Positions 41,720-64,000 of a DNA stretch of 64,000 nucleotides are shown in pieces. Below the pieces are notes generated by a model. The model was not told the origin of the DNA. It did no database searches and worked only from the letters and a program-made list of their open reading frames with translations. The stretch is taken from positions 86,501 through 150,500 of the forward strand of contig JALERM010000052.1 of the NCBI GenBank assembly GCA_022764165.1, read 5' to 3'. The stretch comes from Eubacterium sp. (lineage in GTDB: Bacteria > Bacillota > Clostridia > Lachnospirales > Lachnospiraceae). The translations under genes were made by a program, and so were the position numbers. Position 1 is the first letter of the stretch. Every line of letters starts with the position of its first letter.

Positions 41720-41816
41720 TGCAAAATAGGATTCCATGCGTCAAGTGTTCAGTGGATGGGGAGTTGCCGCAGAAACGAAAAGCTCGTCTTACGATATGGA
41801 ATCTGCACCCGTTGCA
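41720..41816 (+). ncRNA. Tetrahydrofolate (THF) riboswitch aptamer upstream of folE
   Basis: GATTCCATGCGTCAAGTGTTCAGTGGATGGGGAGTTGCC...AACGAAAAGC...ATGGAATCTGCACCCGTTGC: P2 stem GATTCCAT/ATGGAATC with conserved-looking GCGUYAAGUGU, AACGAA and CACCCGUUGC blocks. Confidence 0.75.
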
Positions 41817-47861: not shown

Positions 47862-48356
47862 ATGACAGTAGAAGAATTAGTAAAAGTCCTTGAAATGCAG
47901 GAAGAGATTCTCCAGTTCTCCAGTTTCACAAATGCAGATGCCTGGGAACTGGGCAATATGGTGATACAGGAGGCAAAACGGCTTGGGCTCACAGTTGCCG
48001 TGCGTATTCGCCTGAACAATGGGTATACGGTATTTCAGTATGGCATGGACGGCACCAATCTGCTTAATGAACAGTGGATGACCCGAAAAGAAAACACCGT
48101 AAAGACGCTGGAAGAAAGCAGTCTTCGCTTCTGCATGAACCTTCGTGCAAATCAGGAAAGCCTGGAAGACCATTTCCTTGATCCACGTGAATATGCAGCC
48201 TGTGGAGGAGGATTCCCTATCCGTGTAGAAGAAGTGGGAGTCATCGGAACAATTGTTGTGTCCGGACTGGATCATGTATCCGATCACGACCTTCTGGTCA
48301 AATGCATCAGCAAATACCTGCATGTGGCCGAAGTACCGCGGATTCGAGCAGTGTAA
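47862..48356 (+). CDS. UPF0303 / HbpS-like heme-degrading domain family protein
   Basis: ELGNMVIQEAKRLGLTVAVRI, YAACGGGFPIRVEEVGVIGTIVVSGL. Confidence 0.75.
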   Translation: MTVEELVKVLEMQEEILQFSSFTNADAWELGNMVIQEAKRLGLTVAVRIRLNNGYTVFQYGMDGTNLLNEQWMTRKENTVKTLEESSLRFCMNLRANQESLEDHFLDPREYAACGGGFPIRVEEVGVIGTIVVSGLDHVSDHDLLVKCISKYLHVAEVPRIRAV

Positions 48357-48368
48357 AAAAGTTGAAAT

Positions 48369-48422
48369 TACCCCGGGGAAAAAGTAAAAGTCCCCGGGGA
48401 CTTTTACTTTTTCCCCGGGGTA
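48369..48422. repeat. Perfect 54-bp palindrome
   Basis: TACCCCGGGGAAAAAGTAAAAGTCCCC|GGGGACTTTTACTTTTTCCCCGGGGTA; each base pair checked. Confidence 0.95.
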
Positions 48423-48432
48423 TTCTTAACTT

Positions 48433-48682
48433 ATAGGCTTCATTGATTAGTTTGTGGATGTTCCTCCTACCATTTTTCGTTTTCGATAGGCTCTAATAGC
48501 TGCTATTATTATTTCCATCCTATCTTTTTTTGATTTTTATAGGCTATATCATTTGGTTCTGGGATTTGTAGCCTACGCTTTTATCAATTTCAGTAAGCTC
48601 AGTAAGGTATTTTCGGAATTTTTAGCCTACGTTTCTTCTTATTTGGTAGGATGAAAATCAAATAAGAATCATTTGAGCCTAT
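48433..48682. repeat. Degenerate tandem array, about 5 units of ~53 bp
   Basis: ATAGGCT at 48433, 48486, 48539; GTAAGCT 48593; GTAGGAT 48646. CCTAC/T at 48466, 48519, 48572, 48626, 48678. Confidence 0.75.
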
Positions 48683-48709
48683 AATGAGTAGTTCGACGCA
48701 AAATAATGG

Positions 48710-49657
48710 CTACCTGAACTGTAACAGCGGCAAGGCTGCCATCATGTCCGCAGGAAGCGGCGCACGAAACTGCAGTGGTTCTCCCGTGATAGGATGAACA
48801 AATTCCAGTGCATGTGAGTGAAGCGCCTGCCTGTTCATGTGTACAGTGTCCGGATTGTACAGGGTATCGCCGCACAGTGGATGTCCGATGGATGTCATAT
48901 GAACACGAATCTGGTGGGTTCGTCCGGTTTCCAGGTGAAGTTCCGCCAGTGATATGCCATGGCTGAGAACGGCAGGATCACTGGAACTTCCCTGGAAAGA
49001 AGAACCGGGATAATAGGCCAGCCGCTGATAGTGTGTGATGGCAGGCTCTCCATGCTCCGGATCCACACATCGTTCAATCACAGAGTCCCCCACCCGGCCG
49101 ATAGAGGTATCTATGGTGCCGCTGGGAGGAAGGCAGCCTTCCACTAATGCCAGATAGGTGCGGTGGATCTCACGGTTTTTCATTTGCTGTGACAGAATCG
49201 CTCCGCTCAGCATATTCTTTGACAGAATCAAGAGTCCGGTGGTGTCCCGGTCAAGACGATTGATACAGCGAAATACAAAAGGAATGCCCTGAGATTCATA
49301 ATACCAGGCAATGCCGTTGGCAAGTGTATTTTCATAATTTCCAATCGAAGGGTGGATAGGAGTATCTGCCTGCTTATCGATAATCAACAAATCTTCATCT
49401 TCATATATGATATGAATGGGAAGAGGAACCGGAACAATCTTTTCAGAAGGCATTTCATCTTTCAGGCAAATCTTCAGTTCATCACCAGCCTGCAGGGGAA
49501 AATAAAAAAGTGCAGGCTCCCCATTAAGAATGACAGAACCCGGATGCTGCTTCAGGTACGTGCGGATATGGCGAGAATAACCGTGCTGCGAGAGAAAATC
49601 TCCTGTTCGCATGCCGTGTTCAGTATTTGTTATGTGGTAAGTGAATATTCGCTGCAT
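48710..49657 (-). CDS. RluA/RluD-family pseudouridine synthase
   Basis: S4-like N-terminus, INRLDRDTTGLLILSK, GRTHQIRVHMTSIGHPL. Confidence 0.9.
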   Translation of the reverse strand: MQRIFTYHITNTEHGMRTGDFLSQHGYSRHIRTYLKQHPGSVILNGEPALFYFPLQAGDELKICLKDEMPSEKIVPVPLPIHIIYEDEDLLIIDKQADTPIHPSIGNYENTLANGIAWYYESQGIPFVFRCINRLDRDTTGLLILSKNMLSGAILSQQMKNREIHRTYLALVEGCLPPSGTIDTSIGRVGDSVIERCVDPEHGEPAITHYQRLAYYPGSSFQGSSSDPAVLSHGISLAELHLETGRTHQIRVHMTSIGHPLCGDTLYNPDTVHMNRQALHSHALEFVHPITGEPLQFRAPLPADMMAALPLLQFR

Positions 49658-49772: not shown

Positions 49773-49811
49773 AATTGCCCCGGGGATTTTTACATTCTCC
49801 CCGGGGCAATT
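49773..49811. repeat. 14-bp perfect-stem hairpin of the CCCCGGGGA type
   Basis: AATTGCCCCGGGGA-TTTTTACATTC-TCCCCGGGGCAATT. Confidence 0.85.
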
Positions 49812-61464: not shown

Positions 61465-61908
61465 AAAGTACCCCCCTTGTTAAATGCAGTATAACAGACC
61501 GGGGAGATAAAAACAAGGTATATACTATCTCAAACGGACTTGTATAACTTACGTACGGTGTCAGGTGGTGCACCCTGCAAGGGCTTGAAATAATGTAGGT
61601 GGAAATCCTATCTGGAAAGGAGCTAACCACTTCACTAGAAGTGAGTTTTGGGCTGATAGTGGCAACATTAACTGTTAAGCGTAAACAACGAGATAGTAGG
61701 GATAGTTATGGAACACCGAAATACCTACGAACAGGAGGGCGATGCTGTCACCTGGGCAGAAGCCAACATGTGGGTTTATCGATATGGTGAGATTTCACAC
61801 ACTCCTGCGGTGTCGAAGACCTGTTCATGCTATACAAGGATTTCAAGTCAACAGGGGAGAACCTGTATCATCCATATCCTGTGTAAAATGTGGTATGCCA
61901 GACAACCA

Positions 61909-63870
61909 AGTGCGAGCTGCGAAATCAGCATAGCTGATTTCCCCTAGCGAGCGGAAGAGATTCTGCAAGCTTTGGTAAGCTGATAATCATACAGTAGGAG
62001 AATCCTATCAGGTAAGGTCTAACCAACCGCCTGTACCGAGTCCTTGGAATCAAAGCGGTAACGTTAGATTTAAGCGTAGGACAGGGAGCAACAGAGCCGA
62101 AACGAAAGTGAAGTGATTGAGCTGGGAAATTTGCATGAGGATGGAAATGGTCGATGTGTTTTGGTTCACAGCAGACAACACTGTTATGACCGATATGGTG
62201 AGGTTATGACGGCATCCCCCAGTCTGAGAACTTGGCGAGGTTGATGATAAGTATGTTATCGGAACAGCTGAGGTCCTGCCATTTCCTCGTAAGAGGTATG
62301 GAAACCAAAACAAAGAAATGCGTTAGAAATCCAAATGAATGGCAGGAAGTCCGACACAGCCATAGTATCGTAGAAGTCTGTGAAAGCAGATGGAGAAAAG
62401 GGCTGTGCACTTTATAGCTTCAAGTGATAAGAAACTACGCAGACGAAAGAGAGCTGAAGAACATGGTGAACGAGTTACTTGGAATACAACACAATATCGC
62501 AAAAGCAAACAGAACTGACAGAAAGGTTCAAAATCTTGCATCATATATCAATGAAAATACTCTGAGAGCAATCCATAAAACTATGGATAAAAGAAAAGCG
62601 TACGGAATTGATAAAGTGACAAAAGAAGATTATGAACAGAATCTTGAGGAAAATCTTGCGAGCCTTGTAAAACGGATGAAAAACGGAAGTTACCGCCCAA
62701 ATCCAACAAGGCGAGTCTATATTCCGAAAGAAACAAAAGGCAAACTGAGACCACTTGGAATTTCCTGTTATGAGGATAAATTGGTGGAAAATGCGATTGC
62801 ACAGATACTGGAGCAGATTTATGAACCGAAGTTTTATAATGAGAGCTTTGGGTTTCGTCCCAACAGGAACTGTCATCAGGCAGTGAGGGAAATCATAGAG
62901 ATGGTACAGTATCGGAAGACGAATTATGTGGTGGAAGCAGATATCAGAGGTTTCTTTGATAATGTAGACCATGAATGGCTGATGAAGATGCTGTCACATG
63001 ACATAGCAGACAAGAAGTTTCTGGAGATAATTGAGAAATTTCTGAAAGCAGGAATCATGGAGAATGGTAAATATCTTGACAGCGAACGGGGAACCCCACA
63101 GGGAAACGGTGCCAGTCCAATACTTGCAAATATTTATCTACATTATGTACTGGATAACTGGTTTGATGTAATCGTAAAGAGACAATGTAAAGGCGAATGT
63201 TATCTCATTCGCTATTGTGATGATTTTGTCTGTTGTTTTCAGAATCAATATGAAGCACAGGTATTCAAGCAGAGACTGGAAGAACGCTTTGGGAAATATG
63301 GACTGGAACTGGCCGAAGAAAAGACAAAGATTTTGGAATTCGGGAGGTTTGCCAGGAAAAACCGAAAAGCAAGAGGAGAAAGGAAACCAGATACCTTTGA
63401 CTTCCTTGGTTTTACGTTTTATTGCGGAATGGACAGTAAGAACCAATTTTTCCGTTGTAGGGTAAAGACCAGTAAGAAGAAATTCCGCAGTAAAATCAAA
63501 GCAATGAAAGAATGGATAAAGGTACATAGAGCAATGCCATTAGAGCAGATATTCAAAACAGTCAATGCGAAACTGAGAGGACACTACCAGTATTACGGAG
63601 TGACCGACAATACAAAGGAAGTGAAGAACTTTCTGATACAGACAAAATGGTTGTTGTTTAAGTGGCTCAATCGGAGAAGTCAGAGAAGAGGTTATACAAC
63701 GGATACTTTCTTTAATGGTTTACTCAGGACATTTCCATTACTTGAACCAAGTATCAAAGTGAGTTTGTTTTACAGATAGAGTGTGAAATATAGAGTGAAA
63801 AGCCGTATGCGTTAATAGCGCACGTACGGTTTTGACTAGGGATATGGGGAGTAATCCCCATATCTACTAG
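61909..63870 (+). mobile_element. Inner group II intron with its own RT/maturase (boundaries approximate)
   Basis: GTGCG at 61909; domain I-like CAGTAGGAGAATCCTATCAGGTAAGGTCTAACCAACC; ORF 62424-63779; domain V AGCCGTATGCGTTAATAGCGCACGTACGGTTT (63801-63832); domain VI GATATGGGGAGTAATCCCCATATCTAC. Confidence 0.75.
62424..63779 (+). CDS. ltrA: Group II intron reverse transcriptase/maturase, without HNH endonuclease domain
   Basis: RRVYIPKETKGKLRPLGI, FGFRPNRNCHQAV, GTPQGNGASPILANIYLHYVLD, RYCDDFVCCF, C-terminal GIIM region; ORF ends without an HNH block. Confidence 0.93.
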   Translation: MIRNYADERELKNMVNELLGIQHNIAKANRTDRKVQNLASYINENTLRAIHKTMDKRKAYGIDKVTKEDYEQNLEENLASLVKRMKNGSYRPNPTRRVYIPKETKGKLRPLGISCYEDKLVENAIAQILEQIYEPKFYNESFGFRPNRNCHQAVREIIEMVQYRKTNYVVEADIRGFFDNVDHEWLMKMLSHDIADKKFLEIIEKFLKAGIMENGKYLDSERGTPQGNGASPILANIYLHYVLDNWFDVIVKRQCKGECYLIRYCDDFVCCFQNQYEAQVFKQRLEERFGKYGLELAEEKTKILEFGRFARKNRKARGERKPDTFDFLGFTFYCGMDSKNQFFRCRVKTSKKKFRSKIKAMKEWIKVHRAMPLEQIFKTVNAKLRGHYQYYGVTDNTKEVKNFLIQTKWLLFKWLNRRSQRRGYTTDTFFNGLLRTFPLLEPSIKVSLFYR

Positions 63871-64000
63871 AGAAAGGGAGGATGGCAAACGTGATACAGT
63901 GTAGTCGGATGCCCGAATAGTACCGATGAAGCAATTGAAAGATTGTGGAGGGAAGTCGAGAGAAAGCTGTTATCCTCACAGCTTTGGCATACGGAACAAT

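Follow-up and report, generated by a model that had tools for sequence, protein, structure and literature searches.

A dispersed, probably MITE-like element with IS66-type ends and an internal degenerate 53-bp tandem array in a Eubacterium genome

BOX elements of Streptococcus pneumoniae are modular intergenic repeats in which the number of central units varies, as in the element described here, and they provide a lead for comparison, although their unit length and ends differ from those of the 53-bp array element. BrickBuilt of P. gingivalis, a MITE with IS5-family ends, contains tandem units of 23 bp, and the array units of PgRS measure 41 bp (PMC4596501). Elements of the BrickBuilt, MITE464, and PgRS kind occur in about 19 copies per genome, and many of the copies are missing one end (PMC4596501). 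IS66 elements, in turn, generally generate 8-bp target duplications (PMC3916326). The present locus lies in a 64,000-nucleotide stretch of a Eubacterium sp. genome, referred to as the window, and its features are listed in Table 1. With good confidence, it is judged to be a copy, truncated at its left, of a MITE-like transposable element that is non-autonomous, and the family to which it belongs is best read as a MITE of IS66 type whose interior is a degenerate tandem array.

Table 1. Features at and beside the array (window coordinates)
Feature	Position	Strand	Remarks
HbpS-like (PF03928) gene	47865..48356	+	flanking, convergent
GC-rich palindrome, CCCCGGGGAAAAAGTAAAAGTCCCCGGGG...	48359..48432	.	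arms 92% complementary; separate repeat family
Core of unit 2 of full element	48434..48469	+	TAGGCT-N24-CTCCTA, 36 bp
Core of unit 3 of full element	48487..48522	+	TAGGCT-N24-ATCCTA
Core of unit 4 of full element	48540..48575	+	TAGGCT-N24-AGCCTA
Core of unit 5 of full element	48594..48629	+	TAAGCT-N24-AGCCTA
Hybrid core, left part of unit 6 and right part of unit 7	48647..48681	-	35 bp
Right terminal module	48682..48723	-	ends in CTGAACTGTAAC (GTTACAGTTCAG on the minus strand)
RNA pseudouridylate synthase (PF00849) gene	48710..49657	-	flanking, convergent
12-bp terminal inverted repeat GTTACAGTTCAG	48712..48723	-	also encodes the C-terminal end of the pseudouridine synthase

The array comprises five TAGGMT/CCTA pairs at 53-bp spacing, spanning 48434-48681. 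Read directly from the sequence, the motifs TAGGCT, TAGGCT, TAGGCT, TAAGCT, and TAGGAT start at 48434, 48487, 48540, 48594, and 48647, respectively, and CCTA starts at 48466, 48519, 48572, 48626, and 48678; the first-pass annotation had given the same CCTA positions and had counted its heptamers from one base earlier. The chain consists of five such motifs at intervals of 52–54 bp, each (5/5) paired to a CCTA at +32 (±1). When 48360-48710 was dinucleotide-shuffled 5000 times, no chain exceeded 2 motifs, compared with 5 observed, and at most one pair at +32 arose, compared with 5 observed. The five-unit chain was reached in 0/5000 shuffles, and the phase-locked degenerate array proposed earlier is therefore present and its regular TAGG/CCTA phasing is not reproduced by shuffled sequence. 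Across the whole window, the two-core pattern occurs three times, all at the array, and in none of 100 whole-window shuffles. Tandem Repeats Finder, which had been recommended for the region, is blind to the array even at score 30 because the units are too diverged. The array is non-coding, as annotated, and its interpretation as a CRISPR array was rejected, again in agreement with the annotation, since the units are diverged over their whole length except for the short motifs.

A DNA search of the same genome returned 33 matches at about two dozen places, with 78–91% identity in the longer ones, and what the first-pass annotation had missed is that the array belongs to a scattered family of mobile elements, characterized by terminal inverted repeats and target duplications of 8 bp. 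The sites are mostly clearly intergenic, and the elements are short (230–560 bp) and non-coding. In the most complete copies, GTTACAGTTCAG is followed by as many as seven diverged 53-bp units and then by CTGAACTGTAAC; the left terminal module begins GTTACAGTTCAG..AGCC.NTATC..., and the inverted terminal module closes in ...CTGAACTGTAAC. Each unit consists of a 36-bp TAGG-N28-CCTA core and a linker, mostly of 17 bp. Compared by their inner 24 bases, the units are all homologous, 1 to 5 in direct and 6 and 7 in inverted orientation; unit 1 matches the reverse of unit 7, and unit 2 the reverse of unit 6, both at 75%, compared with 28% in shuffles (99th percentile, 50%). These comparisons indicate that all seven units descend from one ancestral unit, and the initial description needs correction in that the DNA between the motifs, though strongly diverged, is related from unit to unit. 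The units lost differ by copy: L031 has both ends and, between them, units 5 to 7; L020 carries units 2 to 4; and the window copy carries units 2 to 5 and a 6/7 hybrid. Units 6 and 7 are both inverted in the full element, and the hybrid is their join in the window copy, which shows a gap of about 54 columns in the alignment; the fifth "unit" of the window is this 35-bp hybrid, the product of a deletion of about 54 bp. Contig C144, which has array pieces at both ends, gave a first impression of an autonomous element that was later dropped; its ends are identical to those of further contigs, as expected of assembly overlaps, and its two genes look, to judge from their translations, like an AbiE-type toxin-antitoxin pair.

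At its right, the feature extends to 48723, past the limit first annotated, and the last residues (LLQFR) and stop of the pseudouridine synthase are read from the TIR region of the element; in four congeners, the alignment of the orthologues stops at residue 310 of 315. Two of these congeners (L079 and L081) have the same convergent HbpS-like gene after the pseudouridine synthase gene, with no array between them. The periodicity, whose absence from homologous loci had been named as a refutation, is indeed lacking there, and the array is missing at these loci of other species because it is an insertion. At its left, the window copy has no end of its own; the element is cut off next to the GC-rich palindrome, which measures 74 bp and beside which the array begins. 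This palindrome is part of another repeat family: the sequence CCCCGGGGANTTTTAC, found at window positions 48371-48420 and 49778-49793, belongs to a second species-specific dispersed palindromic repeat. It has 64 matches in its own genome, compared with none in four congeners and none backward, and a pair of inverted copies makes a long hairpin after the HbpS-like gene of the window. Elsewhere in the window, two matches to group II intron D1-D4 and one to a group II domain lie near each other at 61602-62232 and 63798-63872, possibly representing two introns in tandem or nested, and a THF riboswitch was observed at 41720-41816.

The 12-mer end is present in 22 exact copies in the genome, compared with 0 in the backward control, and was found once each in two of four congeners and in neither of the other two. 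As in MITEs, GTTACAGTTCAG and CTGAACTGTAAC form terminal inverted repeat pairs, of which the window copy has the right end only. Target-site duplications matching at 7–8 of 8 bases flank 7 of 17 candidate end pairs (four exact, in L031, L043, L053, and L055, and three with one mismatch), compared with four matches at 7 of 8 and none at 8 among 272 cross pairings. Two of the seven members, L031 (exact) and L014 (7 of 8), bear the 53-bp array, L049 holds an array fragment, and the remaining ones have other short insides between the same ends. The window copy has lost its left end and hence its duplication, the duplications being seen on other members of the TIR family. The GTTACAGTTCAG end was also observed around unrelated insides in the short elements L037, L055 (144 bp), L053 (56 bp), and L043 (33 bp), which are flanked by 8-bp duplications, the last comprising barely more than the two ends.

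An intact IS66-family transposase of 555 aa (PF03050, E 3e-18) is encoded at 486-2153 of contig C186 (L060); its gene is single-copy in this genome and has no matches at E ≤ 1e-50 in 60 relatives. The end CTGGCTGAACTGTAAC lies about 30 bases past the transposase stop, and the IS66 element closes in CTGAACTGTAAC; its end and those of the array elements (e.g., L038) are identical over 16 bases and have GTTACAGTTCAGCCAG in common. One IS66 copy with this end was seen, with its right end only; no left TIR was found within the first 560 bases of the contig, and the left end lies beyond it. The IS66 element has no TAGG/CCTA core, and the array therefore did not visibly come from it; the array elements have no ORF, and in the absence of a transposase of their own their kinship with IS66 is by ends only. 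Because the same genome holds an IS66 end and the duplications measure 8 bp, an IS66-type transposase acting in trans is the most likely mobilization route. Such a transposase would move the element through its ends, and the number of units would change through recombination between units.

Between copies, the motif columns are conserved at 94%, compared with 82% elsewhere, and none of 351 circular shifts of the motif mask gave an equally large difference. Of the TAGG-to-CCTA distances counted, 103 measure 32 bp and the others are rare and scattered, and these two results bear out the early proposal that length and the TAGG/CCTA pair are what is retained. The length of the T-rich linker varies from 15 to 18 bp while that of the core stays fixed. 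A search by geometry alone returned 113 matches, compared with 9 backward, and at least three arrays (C84:5598, C13:27276, and C13:40214) have no recognizable TIR. The TIR-less arrays on C84 and C13 keep the 32/53 spacing, which is partly selected by the search itself since they were found via geometry, and their inner similarity to canonical units is at or little above chance; despite the geometry-based search, their three- and four-unit runs are far beyond chance. The 53-bp grammar without IS66-type ends was observed in L110 (1597-1810) and L064 (1501-1642), and the units of the L110 array are more uniform, perhaps owing to recent expansion. The motif columns, the fixed 32-bp distance, and the diverged arrays favor selection over mere inheritance. 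Arithmetically, 32 and 53 bp correspond to about 3.05 and 5.05 turns at 10.5 bp, which would place all half-sites on one helix face, and a DNA-binding protein is the most likely reader of the motifs; of the two functions initially suggested, the binding of a protein along one face of the helix is still the best guess. The TAGGMT/AKCCTA pairs, with 32 bp between partners and a repeat period of 53 bp, would then be putative binding sites for the transposase or a host factor, which may bring the ends together or regulate the element. A wider formulation, which we offer tentatively and consider rather unlikely as a whole, is that TAGGMT-N24-AKCCTA constitutes a geometric DNA code read on one face by a dedicated protein and spread both in IS66-type mini-transposons and alone, with selection keeping the spacing and half-sites and leaving the sequence between them free.

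The grammar of two successive cores occurs 44 times in this genome, compared with 0 in 115 relatives. A stricter pattern was absent from 298 other genomes of the family, a DNA similarity search of 40 relatives gave three very short weak matches only, and searches of phages and plasmids gave no match. As far as can be judged at one genome per species, the element is confined to this species or to strains close to it.

The same observations bear on three other explanations. The array may be an independent functional repeat, such as a set of sites bound by a nucleoid or regulatory protein, which IS66-type MITEs captured and which did not evolve for transposition; the grammar common to the TIR-less intergenic arrays, the survival of the geometry after loss of the inner sequence, and the missing motif in the IS66 element all point this way, whereas many of the arrays found sit in elements with at least one recognizable terminal module, the TIR-less copies may be decayed or truncated elements, and absence of the grammar from all tested relatives is unlike a conserved host system. 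This explanation is possible, if on balance unlikely. An improbable one is a plain functionless minisatellite, whose regularity would be a memory of tandem duplication: the homology of all seven units means that regular spacing is partly inherited, but the motif columns exceed their neighbors in conservation between copies, the core is fixed in length next to a linker of 15–18 bp, and strongly diverged arrays hold the same spacing.

A string of RNA hairpins, as the first-pass annotation had suggested, or transcription of the locus into a structured non-coding RNA would be consistent with single-strand folds more stable than those of shuffles (z -2.6 and -3.7) and with inverted units that permit a long foldback. 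The consensus fold of 11 copies, however, has a covariation term of 0.08 kcal/mol with changes on both sides in 1/29 predicted pairs, no Rfam match lies at the array site, and the promoter scan is at chance level, which makes such an RNA highly improbable. The usual picture of bacterial MITEs is one of bare ends around filler, whereas the filler here has a strict grammar, and a grammar outlasting the rest of the sequence suggests some reader. If the reader were the IS66 transposase, the family would provide a bacterial instance of foldback-type transposon arms with internal repetition; if it were a host protein, transposition would have spread a network of binding arrays specific to the species.

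Among known systems, the array family resembles BrickBuilt, MITE464, and PgRS as a species-restricted, intergenic, MITE-like element that has IS-like TIRs and an inner tandem array whose copy number varies. The units of BrickBuilt and PgRS are direct, and lightly diverged in BrickBuilt, whereas those described here measure 53 bp, are strongly diverged, and comprise five direct and two inverted units; likewise, BrickBuilt and PgRS have IS5-family ends and no consistent target-site duplication, in contrast to the IS66-type ends and 8-bp duplications of the present family. Neither its unit length nor its TIRs agree with those in the text and Table 2 of PMC4596501, which places the array family outside the BrickBuilt/PgRS family. 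It is like IS66-family insertion sequences in the end GTTACAGTTCAGCCAG, common to the IS66 element of its own genome, and in the 8-bp target duplication, and unlike them in that the array element has no transposase and the IS66 element found has no TAGG/CCTA core. As in Foldback and Galileo of Drosophila (PMC3573991), terminal inverted repeats are built of internal repeats and rearranged and solo-arm copies occur; those elements are eukaryotic and have a P-element superfamily transposase, and no homology is claimed. BrickBuilt of P. gingivalis, together with PgRS, is the closest described case, with the same plan in a different transposon family, and what is new relative to BrickBuilt and PgRS is the IS66-type ends, the longer and much more diverged units, the two inverted units, and the consistent 8-bp duplication.
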